Assembly: GCA_945881915.1 (NCBI GenBank)
Contig: CAMCVW010000013.1
Location: 1 to 64,000 of the forward strand
Reading direction: 5' to 3'
DNA: 64,000 bases
Source: Thermoflexus hugenholtzii JAD2
GTDB taxonomy: Bacteria; Chloroflexota; Chloroflexia; Chloroflexales; Roseiflexaceae
This document shows positions 29,001 to 63,774 of this stretch, piece after piece. Positions within the stretch are counted from its first letter, which is position 1, and the number at the start of each line of letters is the position of its first letter. The notes beneath the pieces were generated by a model, which was given only the letters and a program-made list of their open reading frames with translations, had not been told where the DNA came from and ran no database searches. Both the position numbers and the translations under genes were made by a program.

Positions 29001-29786
29001 GATAGCAGCTAACCACTCCCACATCCAACGACTTCGGAATGTAATCCCGGTGTACGATCCACTGCCCTGCATCGTCAAGAGTGCCGCCAACCAGCGTGGC
29101 CGGCTGGCGAGGGCGAGGACCGCATCGTCTTGTTCAATCTGCTGCGCCACACTGTCTCCGCAGCGAGTTCGCACCATACTGACAATGTCTTTGGGTGAGA
29201 GCGGGCGGAGCGTTCGTACGTCTGCGCTACTAAACCATGGTCGGAACAACGCTAACGCTTCACTCCGACAGGACAACACCCAGCGTGCCTGCGGTCCCAT
29301 TGTGCTCATCAACGCGGCGATATGCGAGAGTGCGGTCAGCTGAACATCCGAAGGTAGTTGTTCCAGACCATCCACAAACAAGACCACCGGCAGACTCGCG
29401 AATTCGCGCCAGGTCGGTGGGGTAGGAACGCTGTAACAATCAACAATTGTCTGTTCGAGAGAATCGCGATACCTGCCGAGGTCGATATACAGCGGCACCA
29501 AGCTCGCTTGTTTGGTTTTGCTGGTACGCCCATCGGCCAACTGTATATCAGCGAGCTGGAGTGCCGTCTGCAACAGACAGCTGCTCTTGCCGGCTCCTGG
29601 TGGTCCGACGACCAGAACGCGGGCGTGTTGATCGAGGACTTGCCGCAACCCGACGGGGTTGCCCCGCGTCCGTTCCGTTCCTTCGTGCGCTAACGACAAC
29701 ATCGGCAGCCCACGCACTGCGCTACTCGCAGGGTGTGCCACCAAGGCGTGAAAATATGTTTTCAGCCATGTCATTGCGTCGTTCAT
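23058..29786 (-). CDS. Giant NACHT-type STAND ATPase with about fifty TPRs
   Basis: A 2242-residue protein. The N-terminal NTPase has Walker A GPPGAGKS (61-68), Walker B VVLFVDGLEQL with D139 and the sensor strand WVLSCRSEAL with R174, the pattern of NACHT/STAND switches. A winged-helix-like region follows (to about 400). The rest, about 1800 residues, is a near-continuous run of 34-residue TPR units (recurring A-LG-A and P-N/D signatures), broken by one spacer near residue 1985 (KVAPKEAPAAPVSEE). STAND proteins couple ligand sensing by repeats to ATP-driven oligomerisation and effector activation. The next gene is a caspase-like TPR protease, the natural effector candidate. The gene sits 6 bases after a small membrane protein, inside the dcw cluster. 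Confidence 0.9.
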   Translation of the reverse strand: MNDAMTWLKTYFHALVAHPASSAVRGLPMLSLAHEGTERTRGNPVGLRQVLDQHARVLVVGPPGAGKSSCLLQTALQLADIQLADGRTSKTKQASLVPLYIDLGRYRDSLEQTIVDCYSVPTPPTWREFASLPVVLFVDGLEQLPSDVQLTALSHIAALMSTMGPQARWVLSCRSEALALFRPWFSSADVRTLRPLSPKDIVSMVRTRCGDSVAQQIEQDDAVLALASRPRWLAALLTMQGSGSYTGITFRSRWMWEWLAAILESGNTDAVPALELLVSLNQQFGEQSDTWALVDVVLRLRIGGQNTATLAQQILGAPAVERDIVALRGLVSAGIIHFDYEQQALSYRHPMIRSVVRAKQWILQPPAEWSLTQLAGDEDAVAIAVDISENRAAALRRLFELGLIRPAVKAVLQGGERDRVDTLLHSAGVKTVSMRIAVADILQQEGAIGHARAQLEGIAGEQRQDVDVVRRIAEMALSQSDWAAAVQAYELLCSLRPEDLQARTQLGIAYGKIGSLDAAAQSLQSLIDIYRRQSATVAQELGQIYVQQQNFPAALTAFDHALAEVQDDPSLYCAKGQVLESLRRFDDANALLQGALGRLGDQPALLAALGRVSLERGDTAKAQYYLEKSIGLSPHDAYSHAALGRVRTAKGDTAGALQSWQQAVNLQPNDEALYIALGSACAAVGDSDAAVSSLRKAVAIAPKSITAQRHLAMQLQAHGASDEAVQIVRTALGQASGDAELQSDLAGLLWQRGEYDAALATYRKAITLTPHQSIHMHTMAKALSDVGRFREAAEVYNKAIGIDSDNVVLLIDAIGVFEHLGQIEQGDALIQRALIHHGNDARLLRTAAGFAMRRGRLKRARSYLAKALWQNRHDDASWLKVAQLHIAERAWKPAIASTQYISDVMNNPLALELMGQALAGAGRFDEATSTFEQAIRVNPESAPTLLAYSKSMAQHGRYEFAYEQARKAYLINSSDIEVILQMARMGLQTDRASEALELLDTAAQHAPQRVDVLSTRSRALHQHGFIDEALSVARAALHIDSQSIDAIVATASAFLGVQRHHEARDLFAQANQIDPSQPEVLAGLRDAAMLADDFSTAADAAQRLVALAPKSAEHHLRLGEVLIAIGVPEAAIIELQQALDLERNTPATKNTRHPLRGTAYARMSAAYAKSTRWSEARECAEHAVHADASLPEHHALLGDALLGLGQRVAAVTSYRNAVARRPDFAPWQFILGHLLHQTGADREAVGALKKAVALSNRPEYQHTLGLAHLALGESKQAVAAIEQAIRQRPDAHHWRADLADVHAQRGWYKEAINEIDHALDIAGDHPALWRKRAELLLRNNQVDDASADIVEALRRDGNDVKSLTLMSQIMVEADSLDRALDAAERAVSVHPDDAQAQHQLASVLTTLGRDGEAIPHMIAALRLRDQQYEWWVELADNYEAVHDVTNAAQCMNRAVDLNPSDVNLAYRLGVLSFQAGDYEAAEAELQRVITAMPTSAPAIACLADVALAQGRLNEAYSLARRAVDLQGQVSEHWRVFARVLRGQGEYEKALAAARNAYELEKDYAPSALMYGLLLLDFELVDDAVPVFTAAVAADPTQAVYHMCLGMALRQQTPLAKDFEEFVTQPANIHVKLTAALQAFDRALMIEGDNPRCFFERGIVLQMLERHSEAVSTFDAAAALQGDVHPRHLSGDAHDASILNKNDLAAHIRQRRALSLAMIGRAADALVDMRYVLAVAPLSMHDQYIYGRIAYLAGNLEEALAALAHAAASMPGTAVVQQWYGMLLLNRGALKEATPVLERANELQPGNGPINAALRDAYLAEQRIDRAISAAQRATRFDSGNADNHFQLAKLYVETHQLRESRSSIMAAIALKNEVVSWHMLLGDVCQQMGMFDNARSAYLSATALDPEGTKPLYALSHLLVLQGRINEAITNLEQALQRDPENASWHYELGQLYEQRGDRPAALESYRRAVQFGGDKAQYYRELAKLEAKVAPKEAPAAPVSEEIQRSAHRFQSDEEVFLAMGDVNLAQGRYDAALEQFKHALAVAPTKAEVLWRFGLAMWHLGSSDEARHAYETAIKQDRRCVQAYVGMATIAQHDKQYQSALDHQRIACELEPHAALHKIGLIEILILLKKPEECTALLPQVIKTLPADVTVLQRFAIVAMTLGITAEAISAMERAISIDDSNADSHCLLGRAYKLTGNAQKAQIAFRRALNLNPELKEAQNGLSILGPLSILRRRKPPTL

Positions 29787-35905: not shown

Positions 35906-36757
35906 ATGCCGCCACTCTGGAAGACACATCTCGATTCGTTGCAAATCACCACCCTTGCTGACATATTCCGCACCCCCAAACCCGTCATCGGGATGGTGCA
36001 TTGCTGGCCCATGCCCGGTGCTCCAGGGTACCGCGGGTACGGGATGCGCGACATCATCCGACACGCCCAGTCCGAAGCCGAAGCACTCATCGTCGGTGGC
36101 TGTGACGGCATCATTGTCGAAAACATGTGGGACATACCCTTTCGCGCGGGGGCCCACATCCCCCCCGAAAGTATTGCAGCGCATGCGGTCGTCGCAGCGG
36201 CAGTCCGCGACGTCTGCCCGTTGCCGATGGGCATCAATCTCGTCCACAATGGCGGCGTCGCCCTCCTGGCCATCGCCATTGCCGCTCGGGCAGAATTCAT
36301 CCGCGTCTGTATGTTCACTGGTGCAGGTGTATGGGATGCCGGGAGCTTCGACGAAGGCTGCGCCGCCGATTTATTGCGTCGCCGGAGCGAACTCCATGCC
36401 GAATCCATCAAAATTCTGGCGGATGTCGACAAAAAACACTCCGTCCGCTTCCCCGGCATTGATCTGGCGACACACATCGAATGGACGCGCTTCTTTGGGG
36501 CTGACGCGCTGATTGTATCGGGGCGGATGACCGGTGATGCGCCGGATCTCGGTAAAGTACGTGAAGCCAAAGCCCTCGCCGGGGACCGCCCTATTATCAT
36601 TGGGAGCGGTGCCGACGCCAGCAATATCGGTGCATTCATGAGTGTCGCCGACGGGGTCATCGTGGGATCGAGCATCAAAGGAGGCGGCGCAATCGCAGAG
36701 CCCGTGGATGTCGAACGCGTCAAGCGCTTTGTCGACGCAGCCCGGAGCCGCATGTGA
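35906..36757 (+). CDS. BtpA/SgcQ-family TIM-barrel protein
   Basis: 283 residues, similar to BtpA (needed for photosystem I stability in cyanobacteria) and SgcQ. Typical strands are GMVHCWPMPGAPGYRG, GIIVENMWDIPF, GINLVHNGG and the phosphate-binding IIIGSGADASNI and GVIVGSSIKGGG. The family occurs widely outside phototrophs and its reaction is unknown, perhaps on a phosphorylated sugar made by the kinase next to it. The ATG at 35906 follows AAAGAG; a TTG at 35873 inside the kinase gene is the alternative. It overlaps the next gene by 4 bases (ATGTGA). Confidence 0.87.
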   Translation: MPPLWKTHLDSLQITTLADIFRTPKPVIGMVHCWPMPGAPGYRGYGMRDIIRHAQSEAEALIVGGCDGIIVENMWDIPFRAGAHIPPESIAAHAVVAAAVRDVCPLPMGINLVHNGGVALLAIAIAARAEFIRVCMFTGAGVWDAGSFDEGCAADLLRRRSELHAESIKILADVDKKHSVRFPGIDLATHIEWTRFFGADALIVSGRMTGDAPDLGKVREAKALAGDRPIIIGSGADASNIGAFMSVADGVIVGSSIKGGGAIAEPVDVERVKRFVDAARSRM

Positions 36758-37989
36758 GCGACCAACGTCACATCGTCATGCCAGCGGATGTGTTCCCGCC
36801 CAGATGTGGCGGGGCCGGGTGGAGTGCACACGCATTGGCGACGGCGCTCCAGCAGCACGATGCTTCGGTGACTGCGATTGTGCCGCGCGCTCGCACCGCA
36901 CCTGATTCAGGCACGGTAGATGTCGCAGGCATTGCAACGGTAGAGGTACAGCACCGGCCGATCCAAAACAGTGTTGTGCGGCAACTCTTCTCCATACTCA
37001 GCGTTATCCCGCGCATGCGGGCGCACATCGCGGCGCTGCGCAGTGCAGCGGGTGTGACGATTGTGCACGCCCAACATATTTTGGCAGCCAGAGCAGCGCT
37101 CCCCCTCAAAAACAGCCGCACCCGGGTCGTCATTACGGTGCGCGATCATTGGCCATGGGATATGCGGGCAACGGGGATGCAGATGGCTGGTGATCAACGC
37201 ACACTCAGCGGCATACTCCAGACCATGGCGCGCCGCGATGTCCCGCGCTGGCAATCCGCACTGGCCCCATTCTATGCGTTCCAGATGCGGCAACGCGCTG
37301 CATTATTGACCCAGGCAGATCTGGTCATCGCAGTCTCTGAGCACATGGCGCAACGCGTACGGACGTACACACCGACCGCGAATGTCTGCGCCATCCCAAA
37401 CATGGTCGATATCCAATCGATTGCGCAGACGATTCAAGGAGTGCCAAGCTTCCCCATTCCAGAGCGGTTTGTATTGTTTGTCGGCAAACTCAGTCCCAAC
37501 AAAGGGGCCCAATACTTGCCAGAACTCATTGCGCGCATTCGGCCACCTGCCATTATCGTCGCAGGCGATGGGCCGCTCCAAACTGCCATTGCCGCAGCGG
37601 CAGTTGCTGCCGAAGTGCCCTGCCACATTTTGGATTGGGTCGCCCACGACGATGTCCTCCGCCTGATGGCACGGTGCTCCGCGCTGTGGTTCCCTTCGTC
37701 GTGGGACGAACCGCTCAGCCGTGTGCTCCTCGAGGCATTGGCATGCGCAGCGCCGATTGTTGCAATGCCTACCGGCGGCACCCCCGAAATCATCGTGGAC
37801 GGCGTGACCGGGCTCCTAGCCAACACCATAGATGCCTTCGTGGCAGCTGCGCAACGACTCGCTACTGACCCTGCGTTACAGGCGACGCTCAAACACAATA
37901 GTCTGGCGCATGCCCATAGTACGTACGCCCAAGACATCGTCGTCGCACAGGTACTCGCGCAGTACGATGCGCTAGGAGCACTGCAATGA
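36754..37989 (+). CDS. GT4-family glycosyltransferase
   Basis: 411 residues, GT-B fold. The N-terminal domain shows the PPRCGGAGWSAHALA loop; the donor-binding half has FVLFVGKLSPNKGAQYLPEL, VAGDGPLQ and the EX7E-like segment SSWDEPLSRVLLEALACAAPIVAMPTGG. GTG start overlapping the previous stop as GTGA. It should transfer a nucleotide sugar to a surface or lipid-linked glycan; donor and acceptor are unknown. Confidence 0.9.
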   Translation: MSDQRHIVMPADVFPPRCGGAGWSAHALATALQQHDASVTAIVPRARTAPDSGTVDVAGIATVEVQHRPIQNSVVRQLFSILSVIPRMRAHIAALRSAAGVTIVHAQHILAARAALPLKNSRTRVVITVRDHWPWDMRATGMQMAGDQRTLSGILQTMARRDVPRWQSALAPFYAFQMRQRAALLTQADLVIAVSEHMAQRVRTYTPTANVCAIPNMVDIQSIAQTIQGVPSFPIPERFVLFVGKLSPNKGAQYLPELIARIRPPAIIVAGDGPLQTAIAAAAVAAEVPCHILDWVAHDDVLRLMARCSALWFPSSWDEPLSRVLLEALACAAPIVAMPTGGTPEIIVDGVTGLLANTIDAFVAAAQRLATDPALQATLKHNSLAHAHSTYAQDIVVAQVLAQYDALGALQ

Positions 37990-39224
37990 CCCCATCTATC
38001 CGTGTCGCTCTGTTGGCCCGTGTGGTCTACCCATTGCACGGGTTTGGCGGAATCGAACGGCACGTTTTTCACCTGACGACCCATCTCGCGCGGCTCGGCG
38101 TCGCAGTGACCCTCTATGTCCAAGAAACAGACGACAGCAACGGGCTTGCCCAGTTGCGAACCCAGATGCAGGTCGAGACGCTGCGGTATGACTACACCAG
38201 CCCCTACCTGCGCCCCAACTCGATTCTCGGTCGACAGATAAACTACCCGCGCTACACGCGTACCCAAGGTGCACAGGTTGCGCGCGCGGTGGTCAACGGC
38301 GCATTCGACATTGTGCACACCCAAGGGCTCTGCGCGTACGGGTATGCCGTCGCGCGGTCAGCGGATGTGCGGTTGCAACGCGTGCCATTTTTTGCCAATC
38401 CACACGGGCTGGAGGAATATCGCACGCCAGATTGGCGCAAACGGCTGGCCTATACACCTTTTCGCATGATGTATAGCCACGGCCATCGCCAAGCCGACTG
38501 GGTCATTGCCACTGATGCATGTACTGCACCCGATGTGCCGCACTACCTCGGGGTCGACCCCCGCCGCGTCGTCGTCATCCCGAGTGCCATCGACAGCAGC
38601 GAAAACTTGGCCCCGGTGACCCCTGCACTGACACACCAGATGCGCCGCCGATTTGCCACTGACGACGACATGTTGATGCTGTCGGTCAGTAGACTCGAGC
38701 GCAACAAAGGCTATCACTTGTATGCAGCGGCACTGGCACAGGCTGCCCGCGACGGACTGTTACCGCCACACTGGCGCTGGGTGTTGGTGGGGAGCGGTAA
38801 AGAACGCGCAGCCCTCGAGGCACAGGTCACCCACTTGGGCATCGGTGCTCATGTCACATTTGCCGGTCGTGTCGATGATGCCGATTTGCAGAATCTCTAT
38901 GCCGCCTGTGATTTCTTTGTGCATCCAACCCTCTACGAAGGGTCGTCATTGGTCACGCTCGAGGCCATGATTCACCGAAGACCAGTGTTGGCCACACACG
39001 CAGGCGGAATTCCCGATAAAGTGTTTACAGATGTCAATGGTATACTCGTAGCACCTGGGAGTGTGGACGCGCTGTACGTCGGTCTGCGAGACATGCTTTC
39101 GGCACGCAGTCGCTGGTCCCATTGGGGTGACGCGAGTGCTGCGATTGTATTGCGTACCTTTGATTGGCCAGTGGTGGCACGGCACAACCTCGACATCTAC
39201 GCCCAGGCGTTGGCTGACCGCTGA
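37986..39224 (+). CDS. GT4-family glycosyltransferase
   Basis: 412 residues, GT-B fold. FGGIERHVFHLTTHLARLG at the N-terminus, LSVSRLERNKGYHLYAAAL, LVGSGKERAALE and the donor motif PTLYEGSSLVTLEAMIHRRPVLATHAGGIPD. Only distantly similar to the preceding GT4 gene, with which it overlaps as ATGA, so the two likely act one after the other on the same glycan. Confidence 0.92.
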   Translation: MTPSIRVALLARVVYPLHGFGGIERHVFHLTTHLARLGVAVTLYVQETDDSNGLAQLRTQMQVETLRYDYTSPYLRPNSILGRQINYPRYTRTQGAQVARAVVNGAFDIVHTQGLCAYGYAVARSADVRLQRVPFFANPHGLEEYRTPDWRKRLAYTPFRMMYSHGHRQADWVIATDACTAPDVPHYLGVDPRRVVVIPSAIDSSENLAPVTPALTHQMRRRFATDDDMLMLSVSRLERNKGYHLYAAALAQAARDGLLPPHWRWVLVGSGKERAALEAQVTHLGIGAHVTFAGRVDDADLQNLYAACDFFVHPTLYEGSSLVTLEAMIHRRPVLATHAGGIPDKVFTDVNGILVAPGSVDALYVGLRDMLSARSRWSHWGDASAAIVLRTFDWPVVARHNLDIYAQALADR

Positions 39225-39251: not shown

Positions 39252-40424
39252 ATGCAGATTATGCCATTCCAACTTTCAATCGCACGCGACGAACACGGTG
39301 CGTATGTCTTTTATGCCTTTAGCGACGAATCGAATTTGGTCATGCGAATCGATATTCCTGATCGGCTGCGTGACATCGGTATCCGCCTTCTGGAGTCTCC
39401 ACTGCCTGTTTTCTATGACGACCCGCACGAGTTGGGTCGTGAATTGGGACAGGTCCTTTACCCTCCAGAAGTCCAAGAAATGCTTTCGCATGCCGCCCAA
39501 AATGCGCTGCGCACCAAAAGACGCGTCCAAATACAACTCCAAATCGCCATCCCTGAACTTGCAGCACTCCCATGGGAGTGGGCCAGCATTCCAAATCCAC
39601 AGCCGTGGGCACCTGCTCGCACCGATGACTTCCCGGTGGTTCGGCATTCAGCTGTCGCCAAACCGGCGCATCCGATTGTCGTCGACGGGCCGTTGCGCGT
39701 GCTTATCTGCGTTTCTGATGCGGACTATGATTCCCTACGCGTCATTTCGTCGTTGTTAGCAATCGAAGTCGTACAACAGCGGATTGTGATCGACGTCATT
39801 GTCGTGACCACCATCACGGATATCGAAGTCGCTTTGCAGTCCGCACCGGTTCATATTCTTCACTGCGTCGCCCCTGTCGAACTGGACCACGATCAGGTAT
39901 TGACGCTGCGCTTCGAAGAAGCAATCGACATCGACGACTTCCGAGATCTGCTCGCTCCCTACCCGACTATTGGGATGGTGGTGATTACTCCCGTCGGTCC
40001 GCAGAGTGCACAAGTCATGGCATATCCGCAAATATATGCTGCGCTGCTCCTCAACAACACGCTCATGGCGGCGATCGCATTTGGGGGGGTCTGCCGTGCA
40101 GAGGTACTTACGCGCTTCGCCGCGACCTGCTACAACGCCATCATTGACGGTATGCCGATCGATTTGGCGGTCAGTCATGCGCGACGTACGCTCGGCAACA
40201 TCGATGTCGATCCGTTGTGGGGCTACCCACAGTTGCGCTTGGTTCCGGGCGGTGAGGCGGTTTTTTCGATTGCTTCACCGCAGAATCGCTTCGAGTGGCT
40301 CCGTGCTGCAGGCATAATCGTCGTGTTGATCATTGCGCTCGTAGCAGTCACCGTACTGGGCAGATATCTGCGCGGTGATGGATTGCCATCTATTATTCAA
40401 ATGCTTCTCCCCCATACACCATAG
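39252..40424 (+). CDS. Membrane-anchored CHAT-like protein, catalytic Cys lost
   Basis: 390 residues. Residues about 60-330 follow the CHAT layout: IPELAALPWEWASI then DDFPVVRHS, the His strand VHILHCVAP (H204), and the late helices FAATCYNAIIDGMPIDLAVSHARRTLG. The Cys strand reads VVITPVGPQSAQ (244-254) where active members have an NACxSA-type motif, so no nucleophile is present, and the HG of the His motif is also missing. A C-terminal helix (about 352-372) anchors it to the membrane with the bulk in the cytoplasm. GGAGG precedes the ATG. Likely a pseudo-protease scaffold or sensor; it lies 7 bases before selA. Confidence 0.75.
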   Translation: MQIMPFQLSIARDEHGAYVFYAFSDESNLVMRIDIPDRLRDIGIRLLESPLPVFYDDPHELGRELGQVLYPPEVQEMLSHAAQNALRTKRRVQIQLQIAIPELAALPWEWASIPNPQPWAPARTDDFPVVRHSAVAKPAHPIVVDGPLRVLICVSDADYDSLRVISSLLAIEVVQQRIVIDVIVVTTITDIEVALQSAPVHILHCVAPVELDHDQVLTLRFEEAIDIDDFRDLLAPYPTIGMVVITPVGPQSAQVMAYPQIYAALLLNNTLMAAIAFGGVCRAEVLTRFAATCYNAIIDGMPIDLAVSHARRTLGNIDVDPLWGYPQLRLVPGGEAVFSIASPQNRFEWLRAAGIIVVLIIALVAVTVLGRYLRGDGLPSIIQMLLPHTP

Positions 40425-40431
40425 AGGTTTC

Positions 40432-41778
40432 ATGCATCCATTTCGTTCGTTACCGTCGATAGATTCCCTCGTGGGTTCCGTTGCAGCGTTGCTCGATGCG
40501 CCGCATGCCGTCGTTGTCGCTGCGAGTCGCAGTGTGCTGACCGAGATTCGCGAGAGTGGCGTCGTCGTGGATCATGCTACCTGTGTTGCCCGCGTTGTCA
40601 GTGCTGTGCAATGCCTGCTCGAACCGACGTTACGACCGGTCCTCAATGGCACTGGCGTACTCTTGCAGACCAACCTCGGGCGTGCCCCTTTGAGTAGCGC
40701 CGCGCAAGCTGCCATGCAGCACGCCACGGGCGCAACTGCAATCGAATACGACCTCGTACGAGGTGCGCGCGGGGAACGGAATCGTCATTTATCCCCGCTG
40801 CTTGCACATCTGAGCGGCGCCGAAGCAGGTATTGCAGTCAACAATACCGCCGCCGCTGTCCTCTTGCTGTTGACTGCCCTGGGTGCCGGGCGCGAGGTCA
40901 TCGTGTCACGCGGGGAGGCGGTCGAGATAGGCGGCGGTTTTCGCATCCCTGACGTCCTGCGCCAGAGTGGTGCTACCCTGGTCGAAGTCGGTACCACCAA
41001 CCGCACCTACGTCCGCGACTATGCCGCCGCAATCACCGAACGCACCGCATTTTTGCTCTGTGTGCACACCAGTAACTTCCGGCAATTCGGCTTCGTACAT
41101 ACACCCGATAAACGCGAATTAGCCGAATTGGCGCATCAGCGCGGCATTTTGCTCATCGACGATCTCGGCAGTGGTTCGTTCCTGGATGTGACACAGTATG
41201 GGTTGAGTGCTGAACCGACCGTCCAAGCACACGTCGCCGCTGGTGCAGATTTGGTGTGTTTTAGTGGCGACAAGCTGCTTGGAGGCCCGCAAGCGGGCCT
41301 CATTGTGGGCAAATCATCTCTCATTGATCAATTGACACGCCACCCGTTGCTGCGTGCACTCCGACTCGACAAGACGAGCTATGCAGGCATTCATGCCACC
41401 CTGGTGAGTTATGTCATGCAACGAGCCGTCCACGAGATTCCCATTTGGCAAATGATTAGCGCGACGCACGCTGAACTCTCGCATCGGGCAGGCACACTCC
41501 AACAGAGCCTCGGCCACCCATGGCAGGTGCGCGACAGCGTCAGTACGATTGGCGGCGGTGCACTGCCGACAGACACACTCCCCTCGTGCGCGCTTGTGCT
41601 CCCCTGCTCCCAGCCTGATGCCGTTGCCGCTCATGCCCGTGGGCTCCACCCTGCGCTGATTGGCCGCGTGAAGGACAATGCCTTTTGGCTTGATCTGCGC
41701 TCACTGATGCCCAACGACGATGAAATCCTGCTTGCAGGGTGTCGACTCCTCGCGGAGTCCGCAGCGATACGCGAATGA
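40432..41778 (+). CDS. selA: L-seryl-tRNA(Sec) selenium transferase
   Basis: A PLP enzyme of 448 residues that converts Ser-tRNA(Sec) to Sec-tRNA(Sec). Motifs: VLNGTGVLLQTNLGRAPLS, EIGGGFRIPDV, HTSNFRQFGF, LIDDLGSGS and the PLP-lysine motif FSGDKLLGGPQAG (K281). AGAGG lies before the ATG at 40432. selB, selD and the selC tRNA are not in the window, which is unusual since selA and selB are often adjacent. SelA-like enzymes with other roles exist, but the match here is to the full bacterial SelA. Confidence 0.92.
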   Translation: MHPFRSLPSIDSLVGSVAALLDAPHAVVVAASRSVLTEIRESGVVVDHATCVARVVSAVQCLLEPTLRPVLNGTGVLLQTNLGRAPLSSAAQAAMQHATGATAIEYDLVRGARGERNRHLSPLLAHLSGAEAGIAVNNTAAAVLLLLTALGAGREVIVSRGEAVEIGGGFRIPDVLRQSGATLVEVGTTNRTYVRDYAAAITERTAFLLCVHTSNFRQFGFVHTPDKRELAELAHQRGILLIDDLGSGSFLDVTQYGLSAEPTVQAHVAAGADLVCFSGDKLLGGPQAGLIVGKSSLIDQLTRHPLLRALRLDKTSYAGIHATLVSYVMQRAVHEIPIWQMISATHAELSHRAGTLQQSLGHPWQVRDSVSTIGGGALPTDTLPSCALVLPCSQPDAVAAHARGLHPALIGRVKDNAFWLDLRSLMPNDDEILLAGCRLLAESAAIRE

Positions 41779-53721: not shown

Positions 53722-56046
53722 TTATTTCTCGTATGCGTAGATCACAACATCACCATCAGCGAAGACTTGTTTGCCCAGTGAGGCAACCATCATGCCAGCG
53801 TCGGCACCGTAGGCGGTGCGTTCTGCGTTCCCGATGTAGATATAGCGCACATGGTACAGGTCCAATAGGCTTCGTACTTCGGCATCGTTGGTCGACGAGT
53901 AGATGGTGCGCACGTCGTTTTCGCGCTGGCTAATCTGCTGATCCATCCCCATCTGTCCACCACGCCACTGATATTCATGCCCCGGCCAACCCATCACCGT
54001 CGGGAATCCCGTCGATGCCGAGACGCCACCAAAGCCGTTTCCTTCGATATCGTACGACGAACCGACTCCTTCGAGGACCACCGACCCAGCGGTCACATGG
54101 TCACGCAGCCACGTAATAGACGCGGGACCACCGGCGGCGTAATCGCGCGGGGTTTTGCCATAGAGGGTGCCATCGCGTGGTTCGAGCAGCGCTTTGCCTA
54201 GGGTAGCAGCCGGGTAACTCAGTGCCGCGCCCAGCAATGGGACAACCAGGACGAGACCCGCCACGCGCCAGCGTGTGTGCGGTGTAGACCAAATCTGCCA
54301 TATGCCCAACACAGCCGCCACGCCCCATAACGCCCATACTTGATAGTAAAACTTGAACACCGTGTTCATGCGTGAGCTGAAGGTGTCTCGAATATAGACC
54401 ACGTCCACCACCAGCGTGAGCACCCCTGCCAGTGCTACCATCCCAAGCCAAATGGCAAACGCCGGGGTCACATCAGCGCGACGGAATGCATAGTGCAGCA
54501 ACAGTGCTGCGAGTGGAACGGCAGCCAGGGTCACAAATCCACCGACGCCAGCAGCGATAGCTACAACCGCAGTCACGCCAATCAATACCCATTCGAGTCG
54601 ATCACGGGCGTAAGACACGGCAGCAATGAGTATTGGCACCAAAAATAACCCGAACATGATAAACAGACCATGTGCTTCAGTACGTGCCGGAGCGAGCCCG
54701 AAGTAGCGAGAAAACGTCGCCAGAATCGGGGTCGTCACTGTGGGTTCGGCTCCGCCGACCAGCGACACAAAACTCATATGGAACGGCAAATAGAGTGCAT
54801 ATGAACCCAAAACCGTGATCCCCGCCTCGATGCCCACCGCTCGCCAAGACGCTTTGGCACGCATACTCTGCCACACCATAGCCCCGAGATAGAGCACTAA
54901 GTAGGTAGGATAATCCCAGCTGTTCATCGGGTAGAGCAGTCCCAATAACACCGCCGGTATGATGACGTTCGGCATGGTGCCGACGGCACGGCGCAATGCC
55001 AAGCCGAGCAGCAATAATCCAAACGGCAATGCCATCACATGCGGATGCATGTCACCCAACCAGAAAGAAAAAAACGGGAACTCGGTAATCGAATAACGCC
55101 GCTCCCAGGTACCATTATCTTCGACGAGCGTATCCCAGACCGCCCGGGACGGATTCCACCAGTTGAAGTCCTGCCAGGTGTCACGCGGTGTCAGCTGCGT
55201 CGTTCCTCCGAAGTCCCAACCCTGGAACGGTCGTTGGAGCGCATATGGTTCGCGTGCGCCCAGACCATTCTGGATTGTGGGCAGCACGTCGGCAGTCTCG
55301 AGTGCTAATACTTCGGGGAGGCCAGTCACTAATTGCAAAAATCCACCGAGATTCCCTACCAAGAGCACCGCACAAAACGCAAGTCCGGCAAATAATCCGG
55401 CAGTGCGCTTGCGGAGTGGTTGCTCAACCGGTTGCCAGACTGCAGCCATACTGACAACGACGGTTGCCGCAGTTGCACCAATCATGCCAGCGGTCGTCGC
55501 CAACGCCAAATTGTATGCCACGACGGGATCGACACCAGTGAGTGTGGCAGGGATCGCTGCCAACAGGTAACCCGCATAGTAATAGTTAATCGTCAAACCC
55601 GACATCCATGGATCGAGCGGTGGGAAGCTCGGTGAATGGAGCATGCTGTTGAAAAACGCATAGTCCATCGGTCGTTCCGTACCCCATGGGTCAGGCGTAC
55701 GCCCACGGACAAAGACTACCATCGCAAAGCCAGCCAAAAAGATAATCTCAGACAGCAGCCACGCCCGCCAGTGGGTGCGCAGCCATGCACGGTCGACTCC
55801 CCCGGCTAACCGCCATCCCAAATATCCCATTCCAATTGCAACAAAGACCACGCTCCCGCTATTGAACGGCAACAGGCCTATCATCGCGAGTCCCCACACC
55901 ACCACGCCGATGAGTGCATATCCCAACGGACGTGCGACTCCAACGAGTGCATGCGGTAATGTCTGGAAGAGATATTTGGTCCAGGGAATGCCGACGGTGA
56001 CACAGAGCATGGTCACCAGCCAATGCAAAACCACATCGTTTATCAT
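53722..56046 (-). CDS. YYY-family (DUF2298) polytopic membrane protein
   Basis: 774 residues with about 18 helices. The family-naming NYYY is at 154-157 (LTINYYYAGY), preceded by ERPMDYAFFNSMLHSPSFPPLDPWMSG and followed by TEFPFFSFWLGDMHPHVMALPFG and FSSRMNTVFKFYYQVW. The C-terminal 150 residues (DYAAGGPASITWLRDH, STGFPTVMGWPGHEYQW, VRYIYIGNAERTAYG) form a soluble extracytosolic part. The biochemical role is unproven; topology and the acidic GDMHPH loop suggest a GT-C-like enzyme on lipid-linked sugars. It lies 15 bases after the giant homologue and is likely co-transcribed. Confidence 0.88.
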   Translation of the reverse strand: MINDVVLHWLVTMLCVTVGIPWTKYLFQTLPHALVGVARPLGYALIGVVVWGLAMIGLLPFNSGSVVFVAIGMGYLGWRLAGGVDRAWLRTHWRAWLLSEIIFLAGFAMVVFVRGRTPDPWGTERPMDYAFFNSMLHSPSFPPLDPWMSGLTINYYYAGYLLAAIPATLTGVDPVVAYNLALATTAGMIGATAATVVVSMAAVWQPVEQPLRKRTAGLFAGLAFCAVLLVGNLGGFLQLVTGLPEVLALETADVLPTIQNGLGAREPYALQRPFQGWDFGGTTQLTPRDTWQDFNWWNPSRAVWDTLVEDNGTWERRYSITEFPFFSFWLGDMHPHVMALPFGLLLLGLALRRAVGTMPNVIIPAVLLGLLYPMNSWDYPTYLVLYLGAMVWQSMRAKASWRAVGIEAGITVLGSYALYLPFHMSFVSLVGGAEPTVTTPILATFSRYFGLAPARTEAHGLFIMFGLFLVPILIAAVSYARDRLEWVLIGVTAVVAIAAGVGGFVTLAAVPLAALLLHYAFRRADVTPAFAIWLGMVALAGVLTLVVDVVYIRDTFSSRMNTVFKFYYQVWALWGVAAVLGIWQIWSTPHTRWRVAGLVLVVPLLGAALSYPAATLGKALLEPRDGTLYGKTPRDYAAGGPASITWLRDHVTAGSVVLEGVGSSYDIEGNGFGGVSASTGFPTVMGWPGHEYQWRGGQMGMDQQISQRENDVRTIYSSTNDAEVRSLLDLYHVRYIYIGNAERTAYGADAGMMVASLGKQVFADGDVVIYAYEK

Positions 56047-56061
56047 TTATGGCTCCTCTGC

Positions 56062-59000
56062 TTAGTTCAGGGCATCCAGGGCACGTTGGACGTCTTCGCG
56101 GAAGATGGCATCCGCTGGTGCGTTATCCAGGTATGCGTTGTAGTCTGCGCGCGCACTCTCAAAATCGCCCAGTTGTGACGAGATATTCGCCCGTGTCATC
56201 AGGAAGTCGTAGAACGTCGGGTTCTGCGCTATCGCTACATTCACTTCGGCCAATCCTTCGTCTAGCAATCCTGCAGTCATATAGCCGCTGATGAGTTTGT
56301 TGATGTTGCCTGGATTATTGGCGTATTTGATAGCTTCCCGATACGCCTCAATCCCTTGATCTATCAATCCTGCTTCGATCGAGATATCACCATAGATATG
56401 CAACAACGGGATATCACCCGGATGCGCCTGCGTTCCTTTCTGAAGGACTGCTGCAGCATCATTAAGGCGCGCGTTGCGTCGGTATGCACCGACCAATTCC
56501 ATCATGATATTGATGTCTGCTGGGTCTTTGTCGTAGGACTCCTCGAGTGTGCTCACGTCTTCTTCGATCGGTTGAACCTGCTCGACCGGGAAGCCTACAT
56601 TCGGACTATTCCCTTCGCCACTGACATTTGGATATGGTGCAATCGCGACAATATTCGGAGAAACCGCGTAGACCTTGGTTTCGCTGTTTTTGTAGACTTC
56701 ACGCAATTCCTGCATCTCGGCGATGACTGCTGCACCCTTTTCGCCGTACGCTGCGCGTTCAATCATCCCCACGACGACATAGCTGACACGATACTTCGAC
56801 AAAATACGCCGCTTCACAATGGGGTCTTCGCTCCGGTAGAACTCGATGACGTCGCTGTCGCGTGCCCCGACCACATCCGGATTCCGCTGCTCGCTCTCGT
56901 GCAGCGGACTGACGACAGTGGGGAAGCCCGTGTTGGCAGCGATACGCACACCGTATCCACGGTAGAACTCTATACTCGACTGCAACACCACCGGCGCACC
57001 CTTGACGTTCTGTTTGAGCCATTCCATTGCCTGATAATCGTGCGTAAATGGAATCGTCTTGTCGTACGTGTCGTACGTACCTTCATTCATGAACGCAAGA
57101 CCATCGAGTGTCGCTGGTTGATCTGGATTGATTTTGTAATGCACCCGACTCGGAATTGCCCCGAGTGGGAACGCCACACCCAGCAGCAACGGTATGAGCA
57201 TCAGAGCCAGCACCGCAGTAGCGGCAGTCCGCGGCAAGTGGTCTATTTTTTTGGTGAGTGCCGGCAACGCTACCGCAATCCCAACCGTCAATAACAACCA
57301 GCTCTGCATGCCGAACTTGAATACTGTATTCATGCGATACCAATCGCCATCCGACATGTGATCGCGGAGATATATAAATTCAACCGCACCAGACAATCCC
57401 CATGCAATGCCCATCAACCACAAACCAAACCAGAGCGTGTTGTCTGGTTGCCGTTTGAACAAGAAAGGAACAAGGAACAACACCATTGCAGCGAGCCAAA
57501 TGCGTGGATTACCGATATACGGCATCACTGGAGCCAATGCAGCCTGCGGTGCATACTCTGTCACCAGACCAATGACCATGAGCAATACCAAAACAACTGC
57601 AGCCAAAATCTTCATCAGCCGATGATTCCAGGCCAACAGAACGGTGATTACGATGCTCGGGATGATGAACAAGCCCCACACCGCTGACCATGCTGCCCAC
57701 GGTGATGCAGTTTTGATTGCATCAATCGCTCCCACCTGCGGTGCATACTGTTGGAAGAACGGGAGGTACAGCGCCACTGCCATCCCTGCCACAGCAAGAC
57801 CTTGCAAGATTGCCAGTGGGAACCGCCAACGATGCTCACTGACCCAGACGCGGCGTACCAACGCACCCATAAAGATCAATGTGATGGTCGGAGTATCCCA
57901 AGAATTTGTGACCGACAACGCACCGACGGTCAATGCAGACAATACCCACCAGATGTTGGGGAGTGGAGCTGCTTCGAGCGCCTGCCAAGCCAACGCCAAC
58001 GCCAGCATCAACAGCGGCATGGCAATGACGTGCGCATGCAAATCACCGAACAAGAAGCTCCAGAATGGGAATTCCGTAATGGTACTCGGGATGACGCGGC
58101 TGGGTCCCATGAACCAATCGCCCAGGACGCTTCCGACGAGGGCAAAATCGTTTTCTTTGACTGCGGTGATGACTTCACCAAAGCCACGTGCCCAACCGAC
58201 CGGCAATGCTCCGGCTACGTTGCCCAATATTCCAGTGACCAACACCGCCAATACCCACGGCCAGCGTGCTTTGGTGATGCGCCAGACCAATGCCGCCATA
58301 CCGGTAATCATCAACGCATAGAGCGTTGCCAGGATGAGATTAAACCCGATCTCAGGCGCAATACCGGTCAACCGTAACGGCAGCGAGACCAAGACATATC
58401 CGTAATAGTAGTAATTGAGCGTTCCACCACTGAAAAACGGCGAATAGGGCGGCATCACGGGGCTGCGCAAAACCGCATTCAGGACGCCAAATTCGAACGG
58501 CTTTTCGCCGCCCCAGATGGGCTGCCATACATCCGGATTCGCCATCCGGATGGCAGCCATGAATGCAAACGCAACCAAGAAGAGCAATTCAAACCGAATA
58601 ATCGTCCCGCGTTGGTAGCGTAACGTCGTGCGCACCCAGCGCCAGCCACTCCGAATATAGCGTTCGATTGCGTCCAGATCAAACCAGGTGAGTTTTGCAT
58701 CTGTCGCTGGTTGTAGGCGCATGCCGATGCGCAACAACGACCAGAGACTCACCAGTGCAGTCAACAAGAGTGCCACGATGAGCCCGGTGGTGCTGTTGTA
58801 CATGAGTCGTGCACTGACCGGCAACCACAGTGCATAGCCCAGCAGCAGTAATCCAATTAACCGAGCCCACGGCCACTGCGTCGATCCGAGCCACAGTGCG
58901 GGAATCAGGCCGAGCAAGGCAATCAAATACCACGCCAACATCCACAATGCGATGACCTGAACCGTGTCGGTCATGGGATTCCAGCCGGGCGCAGTGACAA

Positions 59001-62000
59001 CTGGCAGTGACTGATTATCACTGGTCAGGAGCGACTGTTGCGGTATTTTGTTGGTGGGGAATACGGCCAACGTACCGGTTTTGAGGACACCAGGTGCATG
59101 ATTTGCCACTGGCACTTGGTAGATGACGGTCTCGCCACTCGTAAAGACTTTGGAGATTTTGCCAGTTTGGGCGAGTTCTGCGAATGCTTTCCCAGCGTTT
59201 TCGCCGTACAAAGCCCGCTCCATGCGGCCGTAGTAGACATACTCGATGCCGTACTTCTGCATTTCGGCAAACGTCTGATTGGGTTCCAGACTCGAATACC
59301 AGCGCTGGATTGCTTGTTTGCGGGCGTCCATGACGGTTCCCGCATCGGCAACACTCCGCTGCTGCTGCTCGTGCCACGGCCAACCCATCAAGGACTGCAT
59401 CCCGGTGTGGGTGGCGATACGGGTTATCCACCGATAGGCTTCCGCGTGTGCCTCGAGCAGCACCGGTGTGCCCGTGACGTTGGCACGTAACCAAGCGATG
59501 CCATCGGCGTCTTCGCTGAAGCTAAAGTTCATCCCGTTTTCACCCCAGGATGCATTGGGTGAACGCAGGTATGCCTCACCGTCGAGCGACAACGGGGCTT
59601 CGCGGTCATATCGCTCTGCGATACGTACAGGTGTTGCGGTGACCGGGTACACGAATGAGGCACAGACCAATACGAGGGTCACGGCGATCCAGGCGGCACG
59701 CACCGGCATGCGGTACGCACGCAGTTTTTGCCAGGCCCATGCCAATAGCACACCCGCACTGACACCACCAAAGACCCACACCTGCATACCGAATTTAAAG
59801 ACACTGTTCATGCGCCCGATGTCGGACTTGGCAACGAGTACTTCGGTCAATGCCGAAATACCAAACACTGCGAGGACCATCACCATGATAAACACGGTCT
59901 CGAGCGCAATCGGAGCCACTTGTGCATTGGGGCGCCGTTCGAGTTCATCAAATTCCGGTAGCTCGAGTTGAACTTCTGTCTTACGGACGAACCATGGTGT
60001 CGCAACGCGTGCTTCGTTGGTGCGCAGTAGCACCGCCCCAATCAAGCCCACCACGCTGACAATTGCGAATGCCTCGACGTACAACGCGGGCCACGCATAG
60101 TAGACACTGGCTGCCATAGCGGCGAAACTGACGACCAATACCACTGCGCCCACGATACGATCTACCCAGCCGAGACGAATAAGGAATATGACCGCAGCCA
60201 CAAGTGCAGCGTATACCCACATTCCCGAGATTTCGTAGAACAACGACGCGGGCGTCTGCGGACCAGTCCACGGATCGAAACCCGTGTAATCACTGGCGAA
60301 CGACCGGCTGAAGGGCCAGACAAATAGCTTCGACAAGGCAAACACCGTCGCCACAGATGCACCCAAGACCAGCATGTGGCCGACCGCATCTGCGCGTTGC
60401 TGATGATCTCGCCAGGCCAGCAATGCCAAGGTCACCACGGACATGCCGAAAATCGTCGGATAGTCCCAGGTGTTGGTTGCATACGACACACCAGCAAACA
60501 TCCCCAAGAAGAGCAGTGGCACAAAACGTTCGCGCCAGCGCTGCCAGAGTAGCCGCGCATGCCGCCGGCGCCGGATGAGCGCCAACATCACACCCAAGCT
60601 ACCCACCAGCATGAGCAGGCCGAACATGTGCGCGTGCAAATCCGAAAACAAAAACGTGAAGAATGGAAATTCATTGATGACGCCGTCGCCGGTCTTGATC
60701 GAGACGACACGTGTCGCGTCCCAGAATGCCCACTCGCTACGCCCCTTGCACTCGGCTTGCATGGCGTACGATGTGCCCTTATCGCATGCAAAATCTGCCT
60801 CGCCGGTATTGGGAAGGTACCAGAGTGCCTGCGACCAGTTCCCAGCACAGACAACAAAGAGCGCAGCCAAGAGCGCGCCAGCAAACTTGCGCTTGCCATC
60901 ACTGTTCAACGCTGCCAGCCAATATCGCCATTTGCCGGCATAGATGAAGCCAAATGTGCCCTGGAGCGCCAACGCCAGGCTCCACACGCCCACCGCAGTC
61001 AATGCAAAAATCGTGGGAACTGCCAGATTATATGCCGTTGCCGGCGCAATCCCGGTCAGGTGGACCAGGACGCCTACCATCACGAATCCGAAGTAGTAGT
61101 AGTTCAGCATGCCACCCGCGAACCAGGGGTCGATTGGCGGGAAGGCCGGGCTGCGTATCACAGCAGTCAAAAATGCAAGGTCCATCGGCTTTTCGCCACC
61201 ACGGGCGGGATGCCACAGGTCGGGATTACTCGCCCGAATCAACACAAACGCTGCATACGCGAGTAAGAACAAGCCTTCGGTCGTCAAAATCAACCAGCGC
61301 GACTCGTGCCACCAGCTCCGCCATTCGGCGCGGTTACGCCAACCGACAACCGCCGCCAGCGCAACCCAGCCCCCAGCGATGACGCCCACACCAACGCGGG
61401 TGAAACTCAGCAGGTTGACACTCGCAGCAAACCAAATCAGCCACGCAACCGTCACCAAACTGAGTATTTTAATCAGCCCAAAGCCACGGTCAGGCATCCA
61501 TTTGAAGGTGCCTTGGAGCAGTACAAAACCTGCCAAACCGATAATCTCGAACGCCAATATCCACCACAACCATGGCAGGGTGGTCGTTGTCACGGTGCTA
61601 AACAGTTCGGTCCACTTGGCACTATTGCGATAGGTGGGCCATTGCAGATCCGTGAAGTGCAGGGCAGTCATTACGGCGCTGGCGCGGATGGTGGGCAGTT
61701 TATAGACTTCTTCGAAGACTACGCCCTTGGTAATAATGGCTTCGGCGTTGGTCTTGGAGTAGGTGTCGTTCTTTTTGAAAATCAAGACCCGTGGGTGATC
61801 GTAGACGCTAAATGCTTCTTCGGCCCAGATCGACGTGGGCACTTCAAACCCGAATAGCCTCGGAGCAGCGCGGAACTCCGCTACCAACGTGAATCCCAGT
61901 GACCCATCAGACAGAGCTTTGTAGTAATTGATCAGCGCCGGATAACGCATCACCAAGCGTCCAGCCGTGTCATAGACACGATTGCTACTCATGATGATAT

Positions 62001-63774
62001 AGTCGACTTTGTCGATTTGGTCTAGCATCCCGAGTTCATCAGGGTTCCCGTTGCCGTACCACTTGTTCCGTTCGTCTTCGCCATAGACGGGGAATGCGTA
62101 GCCCTTGAATTCATCGGCCGAACGACCGTCCAGCCCCAACGGCAGCCCATCGTCCCACGTCTCGGCACTGATGCCCGAACCAGGCGGTATGTTGGTGTAG
62201 ATCCAGCGCGAGGCAGCCACACGGCTGTGTTCTTCGGTGTACATGCGGGTAAAGGCATATCCCCACGACACTGCACCGATTACCACCACTAACGCAGGGA
62301 CCACGACCATGAATGCAATGCTTCGCCCAATGGTGAGTGCCCGGGCGCGATGCAATTGCGGATCACCCGGTTGCCACATCCAACGCATCACCGCATCAAA
62401 GACGCGCTCGCGCTGACGTGCAATCTCTACAATCAACCAGGCGGCAAAAATAATCAATACGCCGTAGATGGGCAGATAGTAACGCATGGTCATCAGGAAC
62501 TGACCACCCTGCCAACCAAAGAAAAAGAGGACCCAGGCAAACGGTACCAAATGAACGATTTTTTTGCGACGGAGCAACTGCCAACCAGCCACCAAGAATC
62601 CGAACCAGGCAGCCACACCCAATGGGGCGCCCATGCCTGCCAAGACCATGTTGCTCAGCGCAAACATATAGCGTGGTCGGGCAGCCCACTGTTGCGTCGG
62701 CGGCCAATCGACTTCACCCGAGGCAAATCGTCGGATGTCATCCATACTCTTGAGAAAACGATCATCCGGCCGGATATCGAAAAATCCCTTCCCTTGGAAG
62801 AAGTCGTCGATAACGACGCCCCTGTCACCGAGCACTTCGGTCAAAATCATTTTGTCGGGTGCCCCGGGCAGCGTGCCAGCAAACATGTCAGGACCGAGTG
62901 TCCGCGCTACAAACAGCGTCATGACACCGGTCAGGACCAACAACACAAAATCTCGTTGCACGGCGTACATATTGCCACGCTGCCACGCAGCATAGATGCG
63001 ACTGAATGCGGCCACGATGGTGACCACCGCAACGGTCACCAGGGTGATACGACAGGCGATCGAAGCGCCGATTGCGAAGGCTGCACCCGCATAGTCGCTC
63101 AACCCTCCGCGCTGGGCCACACGGATAGAACAATAGACCGTCAGCAGAATAAAAAAGGCGCTGCCGGCATCGACCGTAAAAAAATGCGCCTGCTGGATGG
63201 CAAACGCAGTTCCTGCATACATCAGCCCGGCCAACAACCCGACACCACTGCCGTACAGACGTCTCCCAATGCCATAGATGACCAGAATTGACAGTAAATC
63301 GAAGAAGGCTGACCAGACACGTCCCACCTTGTGGATGTCATTGGTATAGTCGCGTCCCTCTGGGTTGATGACGTTGCGCAAAAATTCCGGCAGGTATGCC
63401 GATATCTCACGTTCTGCATTGGGATTTCTGGCACCATCACCCGGCAACATCGCCGGCAACCGATCAGGAGGTGTAATGAGCACCGCGGTCAGTCGCGTCA
63501 ACTCGTGCGGCAACAAGCCATAGACAAAAAACTTGTAATTGCCGTTTCTTGGATTGAGTGGCGTGTTGGTTGAGTCGAGATACTCACCGAACGACCCGGG
63601 AAGATGAATTTGCGAGGCGACCTCAGTCAAAAACCGCTCGTCAGGGTGCAAGCGGAACGATGGTTCGTCCCACATGAACAGTCCACCCAAGCGGAAGTAT
63701 GCTCCGAGCAAGAGAATTGCCAACAGTGCCACAGATTGGCCAACCGACCGTCGGAAGAACGACGTTACATTCAT
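56062..63774 (-). CDS. Giant fusion: PMT/GT39-like, two YYY modules, TPR tail
   Basis: 2570 residues, uninterrupted. Module 1 (to about 720) looks like a PMT/GT39 mannosyltransferase: an early helix, then LHPDERFLTEVA with the Asp-Glu pair (D45, E46) in the first loop. Module 2 (about 730-1640) and module 3 (about 1650-2390) are complete YYY (DUF2298) units, each with an NPDxWxPxxGGEKP start, an NYYY motif (MLNYYYFGF and TLNYYYYGY), TEFPFWSFLFGDLHAHV-like loops, RMNTVFKFGMQxW and a soluble VxYVxxGxxERAxYG end. Residues from about 2400 form four or five TPRs. The tail may be cytoplasmic or outside depending on helix count. A TATAAT box and a hairpin lie in the upstream region. Probably a surface glycan or glycoprotein enzyme complex in one chain. 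Confidence 0.87.
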   Translation of the reverse strand: MNVTSFFRRSVGQSVALLAILLLGAYFRLGGLFMWDEPSFRLHPDERFLTEVASQIHLPGSFGEYLDSTNTPLNPRNGNYKFFVYGLLPHELTRLTAVLITPPDRLPAMLPGDGARNPNAEREISAYLPEFLRNVINPEGRDYTNDIHKVGRVWSAFFDLLSILVIYGIGRRLYGSGVGLLAGLMYAGTAFAIQQAHFFTVDAGSAFFILLTVYCSIRVAQRGGLSDYAGAAFAIGASIACRITLVTVAVVTIVAAFSRIYAAWQRGNMYAVQRDFVLLVLTGVMTLFVARTLGPDMFAGTLPGAPDKMILTEVLGDRGVVIDDFFQGKGFFDIRPDDRFLKSMDDIRRFASGEVDWPPTQQWAARPRYMFALSNMVLAGMGAPLGVAAWFGFLVAGWQLLRRKKIVHLVPFAWVLFFFGWQGGQFLMTMRYYLPIYGVLIIFAAWLIVEIARQRERVFDAVMRWMWQPGDPQLHRARALTIGRSIAFMVVVPALVVVIGAVSWGYAFTRMYTEEHSRVAASRWIYTNIPPGSGISAETWDDGLPLGLDGRSADEFKGYAFPVYGEDERNKWYGNGNPDELGMLDQIDKVDYIIMSSNRVYDTAGRLVMRYPALINYYKALSDGSLGFTLVAEFRAAPRLFGFEVPTSIWAEEAFSVYDHPRVLIFKKNDTYSKTNAEAIITKGVVFEEVYKLPTIRASAVMTALHFTDLQWPTYRNSAKWTELFSTVTTTTLPWLWWILAFEIIGLAGFVLLQGTFKWMPDRGFGLIKILSLVTVAWLIWFAASVNLLSFTRVGVGVIAGGWVALAAVVGWRNRAEWRSWWHESRWLILTTEGLFLLAYAAFVLIRASNPDLWHPARGGEKPMDLAFLTAVIRSPAFPPIDPWFAGGMLNYYYFGFVMVGVLVHLTGIAPATAYNLAVPTIFALTAVGVWSLALALQGTFGFIYAGKWRYWLAALNSDGKRKFAGALLAALFVVCAGNWSQALWYLPNTGEADFACDKGTSYAMQAECKGRSEWAFWDATRVVSIKTGDGVINEFPFFTFLFSDLHAHMFGLLMLVGSLGVMLALIRRRRHARLLWQRWRERFVPLLFLGMFAGVSYATNTWDYPTIFGMSVVTLALLAWRDHQQRADAVGHMLVLGASVATVFALSKLFVWPFSRSFASDYTGFDPWTGPQTPASLFYEISGMWVYAALVAAVIFLIRLGWVDRIVGAVVLVVSFAAMAASVYYAWPALYVEAFAIVSVVGLIGAVLLRTNEARVATPWFVRKTEVQLELPEFDELERRPNAQVAPIALETVFIMVMVLAVFGISALTEVLVAKSDIGRMNSVFKFGMQVWVFGGVSAGVLLAWAWQKLRAYRMPVRAAWIAVTLVLVCASFVYPVTATPVRIAERYDREAPLSLDGEAYLRSPNASWGENGMNFSFSEDADGIAWLRANVTGTPVLLEAHAEAYRWITRIATHTGMQSLMGWPWHEQQQRSVADAGTVMDARKQAIQRWYSSLEPNQTFAEMQKYGIEYVYYGRMERALYGENAGKAFAELAQTGKISKVFTSGETVIYQVPVANHAPGVLKTGTLAVFPTNKIPQQSLLTSDNQSLPVVTAPGWNPMTDTVQVIALWMLAWYLIALLGLIPALWLGSTQWPWARLIGLLLLGYALWLPVSARLMYNSTTGLIVALLLTALVSLWSLLRIGMRLQPATDAKLTWFDLDAIERYIRSGWRWVRTTLRYQRGTIIRFELLFLVAFAFMAAIRMANPDVWQPIWGGEKPFEFGVLNAVLRSPVMPPYSPFFSGGTLNYYYYGYVLVSLPLRLTGIAPEIGFNLILATLYALMITGMAALVWRITKARWPWVLAVLVTGILGNVAGALPVGWARGFGEVITAVKENDFALVGSVLGDWFMGPSRVIPSTITEFPFWSFLFGDLHAHVIAMPLLMLALALAWQALEAAPLPNIWWVLSALTVGALSVTNSWDTPTITLIFMGALVRRVWVSEHRWRFPLAILQGLAVAGMAVALYLPFFQQYAPQVGAIDAIKTASPWAAWSAVWGLFIIPSIVITVLLAWNHRLMKILAAVVLVLLMVIGLVTEYAPQAALAPVMPYIGNPRIWLAAMVLFLVPFLFKRQPDNTLWFGLWLMGIAWGLSGAVEFIYLRDHMSDGDWYRMNTVFKFGMQSWLLLTVGIAVALPALTKKIDHLPRTAATAVLALMLIPLLLGVAFPLGAIPSRVHYKINPDQPATLDGLAFMNEGTYDTYDKTIPFTHDYQAMEWLKQNVKGAPVVLQSSIEFYRGYGVRIAANTGFPTVVSPLHESEQRNPDVVGARDSDVIEFYRSEDPIVKRRILSKYRVSYVVVGMIERAAYGEKGAAVIAEMQELREVYKNSETKVYAVSPNIVAIAPYPNVSGEGNSPNVGFPVEQVQPIEEDVSTLEESYDKDPADINIMMELVGAYRRNARLNDAAAVLQKGTQAHPGDIPLLHIYGDISIEAGLIDQGIEAYREAIKYANNPGNINKLISGYMTAGLLDEGLAEVNVAIAQNPTFYDFLMTRANISSQLGDFESARADYNAYLDNAPADAIFREDVQRALDALN

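Follow-up and report, generated by a model that had tools for sequence, protein, structure and literature searches.

A three-module fusion protein of Chloroflexales and the placement of its YYY (DUF2298) modules among predicted GT-C glycosyltransferases

Introduction

The closest described counterparts of the protein analyzed here are membrane glycosyltransferases of the GT-C type, namely the OST/STT3-AglB-PglB enzymes, Pmt (GT39), ArnT, ALG9/ALG12 and DPY19, with which it shares a modelled fold, an acidic first outer loop and an extracytoplasmic C-terminal domain. To our knowledge, STT3-AglB-PglB, Pmt, ArnT, ALG9/ALG12 and DPY19 each feature one GT-C module per chain, whereas in the present chain three predicted GT-C modules follow one another. 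Two of these belong to the TIGR03662/PF10060 (YYY or DUF2298) family, which has no stated function; the literature searched contained no functional study of DUF2298. The TIGR03662 entry already sets apart proteins that have an additional N-terminal region, the domain in duplicate and TPR repeats, which is the layout of the present fusion.

Two further systems bear on the comparison. The human TMTC1-4 proteins combine a GT-C membrane part with lumenal TPR repeats that follow it (PMC7801869). The present chain resembles them in having a GT-C-like module succeeded by a TPR tail, but they contain a single GT-C module and a DUF1736 segment, and DUF1736 was absent from the Pfam matches of our chain at E 1. 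Agl23 (TIGR03663), reported as a flippase (PMC11182771), includes distant relatives of the N-terminal module of the fusion. To this background we add the placement of YYY among the GT-C enzymes, its candidate active site, the nature of the N-terminal region and the history of the family; the GT-C placement and the position-specific clades of YYY described below were both derived in this analysis.

Architecture of the fusion and its neighbor

The window, i.e., the whole 64,000-nucleotide stretch that was analyzed, comes from the 3.09 Mb genome, in 63 contigs, of a Roseiflexaceae bacterium. Positions 56062-63774 of its minus strand form a single intact open reading frame of 2570 codons with an ATG start and no internal stops, which codes, in order from the N-terminus, for a PMT_2-like module (N), two YYY (DUF2298/TIGR03662) modules (Y1 and Y2) and a TPR tail. 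The chain contains two copies each of PF10060 (DUF2298, Chlor_Arch_YYY; 650.8 bits in total) and TIGR03662 (982.8 bits), as well as a TPR_19 repeat at residues 2409-2458 (E 8.7e-7, above cut-off). A stand-alone YYY gene of 774 codons (YA) lies downstream on the same strand at 53722-56046 (minus), separated from the fusion gene by just 15 bp; its product scores 495 bits with TIGR03662 against a cut-off of 300.25 and falls in the Y tree with stand-alone Y genes from relatives. Y1, Y2 and YA are all above the curated TIGR03662 and PF10060 cut-offs. Both the 2570-residue chain with two YYY modules and a TPR module and the separate adjoining YYY gene had been proposed in a first-pass annotation, and both are borne out.

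The N module covers residues 1-725 (61600-63774, minus). Scanning the full-length chain returned no match over these 725 residues, and the affinity emerged when the module was scanned alone: it then matched PMT_2 (PF13231) at 47.8 bits (E 2.3e-12), above the cut-off of 26.1, and PMT (PF02366, GT39 proper) at 20.8 bits, below the cut-off of 22.7. The module, described as GT39-like in the first-pass annotation, falls short of GT39 proper, which we reject for N. Y1 occupies residues 731-1560 (59095-61584, minus; TIGR03662 stretch 735-1554) and groups with the Y1 modules of its relatives in the Y tree. Y2 occupies residues 1576-2375 (56650-59049, minus). The tail, at about residues 2401-2570 (56065-56574, minus), is recognized by the TPR_19 match, is modelled as TPR and matches TPR structures.

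Distribution and origin of the fusion

We conclude that the fusion is genuine and ancient. Of 400 genomes sampled from the phylum, 274 have TIGR03662 matches. Within the order, DUF2298 is found in 59 of 60 genomes, and in at least 45 of these, as counted by eye, it lies in an open frame 2300 to 2900 codons long. Among the named records, the closest relative is a contig from Roseiflexaceae, which has the same N-Y1-Y2-TPR layout and an N module that is 88% identical. Full-length loci with this layout recur in many Chloroflexales from independent assemblies, among them one-contig genomes such as G118 and G158. This recurrence rules out an origin of the fusion in frameshift or assembly error, the latter of which the first-pass annotation had named as potentially fatal to its proposal; nothing was found in favor of such an origin, and we regard it as having practically no chance of being correct.

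Outside the Chloroflexales, the full-length loci show an N-Y1 protein of about 1360 to 1800 residues, often with an adjoining separate Y. A few loci (L053, L074 and L094) code for N-Y1-Y2 without TPR. The check for split orthologues that the first-pass annotation had called for also turned some up: one locus (L134) codes for a 619-residue N, followed by a 793-residue Y and then a PMT_2 protein, and in Patescibacteria (e.g., L106, L119, L123 and L132) N and Y are encoded by distinct genes with a few kilobases between them.

Two individual loci call for separate comment. At L059:8878-16736, the frame that holds N and the start of Y1 overlaps a second one with the remainder of Y1-Y2-TPR, owing either to a frameshift or to a genuinely split gene in that assembly. 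A contig titled Singulisphaera (Planctomycetota; L056) carries modules that fall among those of Roseiflexaceae at about 69% identity and is probably misassigned.

Predicted folds and homology of N and Y

Searches of PDB sequences gave only weak STT3A/PMT2 matches for the N profile, and for the Y2-TPR profile the best 60 matches listed all fell in the TPR part; hence, a comparison at the level of fold was needed. Using AlphaFold2 with homologue alignments, we obtained two models, one of N (mean pLDDT 91.7) and one of Y2-TPR (mean pLDDT 91.2), with Y1 and YA being assigned by homology only. For the N model, all 28 Foldseek matches with E <= 0.001 are GT-C enzymes, and OST, Pmt and ArnT are among its structural matches. 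VIA-align likewise superimposed it on AglB (Z 25.4, 7.0 A over 427 residues) and on Pmt2 (Z 23.2, 4.0 A over 411 residues).

For the Y2-TPR model, the best Foldseek match is the C-mannosyltransferase DPY19 (E 1e-5), with PglB and AftA lower in the list and the remaining listed matches being TPR and other helical-repeat proteins. VIA-align matched it to Stt3 (6.7 A over 453 residues) with a Z of 15.1, which is only modestly above the tool's warning range for helical bundles, and the structural matches have low TM-scores. Because TPR chains fill the VIA-align list for this model, the absence of a GT-C family from it does not speak against a match. The Stt3 match spans model residues 154-814, which places the three leading transmembrane helices of Y2 outside the predicted GT-C core.

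Given the low TM-scores and the modest Z for Y2, an independent line of evidence was useful, and the profile-profile comparison by hhalign provided it, linking Y to N at P 1.6e-6. With this alignment extended to full length, an invariant glutamate of Y (in its EKP motif) falls opposite Glu46 in the HPDE motif of N. Both models thus match solved GT-C glycosyltransferases, and the prospect that the YYY modules would have folds unrelated to GT-C does not hold, given the GT-C-like model of Y2 and the sequence homology of Y with N. Taken together, the models and this homology place the YYY modules among the GT-C glycosyltransferases, with Y1 and YA joining by homology.

Candidate active-site motifs and position-specific Y groups

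A conserved acidic residue is found in the first outer loop of both module types. In N, the HPDE motif anticipated by the first-pass annotation is present at residues 43-46 (63637-63648, minus) in the first extracytoplasmic loop, and its D45 and E46 are unchanged across 67 sequences. In Y, the corresponding candidate catalytic loop features the EKPx[D/E] motif, seen as EKPMD at residues 861-865 of Y1 (61180-61194, minus) and as EKPFE at residues 1757-1761 of Y2 (58492-58506, minus; the invariant glutamate is Glu1757). Across 98 Y sequences, the invariant positions include the EKP glutamate, one tyrosine and the glycine of YYYxG, an arginine, the E and P of EFP, the aspartate and both histidines of DxHxH, and the R, N, F and K of RMNTVFKF (RxNxxFK), all of which are kept at all three positions (Y1, Y2 and YA). 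The conserved YYYxG motif reads NYYYFG in Y1 (residues 891-896; 61087-61104, minus), NYYYYG in Y2 and NYYYAG in YA.

These acidic residues bear on what N does. Sugar transfer is not its only conceivable role because of the flippase activity reported for its distant relative Agl23, and N could instead be an Agl23-like flippase, or flippase partner, for lipid-linked sugars, leaving sugar transfer to the Y modules. In line with this, 15 of the 21 orthologues in the N alignment match TIGR03663 (flippase activity-associated protein Agl23; best E 5.2e-10), and there is a biochemical precedent in the purified Haloarcula hispanica Agl23, which translocated M5GN2-PP-Dol in liposomes and also suppressed a yeast rft1 deletion (PMC11182771). 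However, the N module of the window itself has no TIGR03663 match at E 1, the acidic residues of HPDE are retained throughout the 67 sequences, and N models as a GT-C transferase. We therefore regard the flippase reading as unlikely and favor a transferase role for N.

While they share the motif residues, the Y modules differ by position. The last position of EKPx[D/E] is Glu in all Y2 sequences and mostly Asp in Y1, and another site is Phe or Tyr in Y2 versus Trp in Y1 and YA. In a quick tree made without bootstrap, Y2 is a single group, whereas two changes are required for Y1 and two for YA; the support for Y1 plus Y2 is 99*. Position-specific groups are expected if each position has its own job, and the presence of such groups, each with the motif residues, suggests a division of labor among the positions, although the pattern falls short of proof.

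A different view is that at least one Y lacks catalysis and serves as a scaffold for binding lipid or acceptor, with the chain performing only one or two transfer steps. A precedent comes from a fused relative (L039:5989-12990), in which the EKP and YYY motifs are gone from Y1, making it an inactive-looking module, and Y2 is intact with a full-length score; thus, not every module need be catalytic. Against its application to the window, all three Y copies there retain the motif residues that are invariant across the 98 sequences. We accordingly hold a scaffold role to be improbable for this locus and prefer catalytic roles for all its Y modules.

Membrane topology

Model helices, hydropathy and counts of charges (the positive-inside rule) predict that N has its N-terminus inside and its C-terminus outside, with about 11 transmembrane helices and an extracytoplasmic C-terminal domain. 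Each Y would have both termini outside, with three leading helices followed by a core of about 13. This arrangement would give the whole chain about 43 transmembrane helices and would expose the TPR tail, like all of the acidic loops, on the outside. The three leading helices would allow a core with a cytoplasmic N-terminus to follow a module that ends outside, permitting a head-to-tail fusion with the active loops on the outer face, as judged from the models, hydropathy and charge distribution.

Genomic co-occurrence and context

N and Y travel together: of 23 genomes that have a strong Y, 21 contain N (E < 1e-100), versus only 1 of 39 with a weak Y or none, the two exceptions among the strong-Y genomes having no N match at E 1e-20. 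The associated Fisher p of 3e-13 is uncorrected for kinship and serves as a guide only, since the genomes are not independent. Recurrent neighbors, by counts made without a background control, include GT4 and other PMT_2 proteins, NDP-sugar epimerases/dehydratases, methyltransferases and LPG_synthase_TM.

The source genome codes for GT2 proteins that resemble polyprenyl-phosphate-sugar synthases, all below curated cut-offs, one GtrA protein and five PF03706 proteins. A scan of the entire genome for STT3 (PF02516) at E 0.001 found nothing, nor did the chain match it at E 1, and an STT3-type oligosaccharyltransferase was rejected for lack of a match to this family in the genome. A search of the literature for a link with surface glycoproteins found nothing specific.

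Several other genes nearby were noted. Within the window, a 2242-residue protein consisting mostly of TPR repeats is encoded at 23058-29786 (minus), and two adjoining GT4-type glycosyltransferases at 36754-39224 (plus) are followed by a SelA-like protein at 40375-41778. Beyond the window, a second N-type protein, scoring 461 bits with the N profile, is encoded upstream on the same strand (L054:9250-13023, i.e., about 69250-73023 of contig C13). No significant match to Y falls in the second half of this protein, although by eye it features a stretch like the first loop of Y without EKP or YYY.

Proposed function

Considering the evidence as a whole, we slightly favor an explanation in which the protein is an outer-face assembly of GT-C modules that act on sugars linked to polyprenyl phosphate. 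The three predicted GT-C modules in one chain would constitute a membrane glycosyltransferase assembly on the extracytoplasmic face, with each module probably taking a sugar from a polyprenyl-phosphate carrier and passing it to an acceptor. The acidic residues of the first outer loop, in HPDE of N and EKPx[D/E] of Y, would be used for the transfer, and N, Y1, Y2 and the neighboring YA may perform distinct steps. The outward-facing TPR tail might hold the acceptor, a role suggested by comparison with GT-C transferases that carry TPRs, such as TMTC. The first-pass annotation, which had read the fusion as pointing to lipid-linked sugar transfer, perhaps in sequential steps on one glycan or protein, is thus borne out only in part. 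The catalysis, donor, acceptor, order of steps and role of the TPRs are all what we infer, and the literature searched yielded no biochemical test of this activity. More tentatively, and with odds that we place on the lower side of even, the system might operate as an assembly line, in which three GT-C sites in one polypeptide and a fourth in the next gene add successive sugars, taken from polyprenyl-phosphate donors, to a single acceptor held by the outward TPR domain.

Conclusions

By these findings, YYY, a membrane family present in over two-thirds of the genomes sampled from the phylum, can move from an unexplained group to one that can be tested for glycosyltransferase activity, with specific residues as candidates for catalysis. 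The natural fusion of three modules offers a route to ask how successive extracytoplasmic sugar transfers are organized, and the naturally split orthologues provide simpler proteins for assay.
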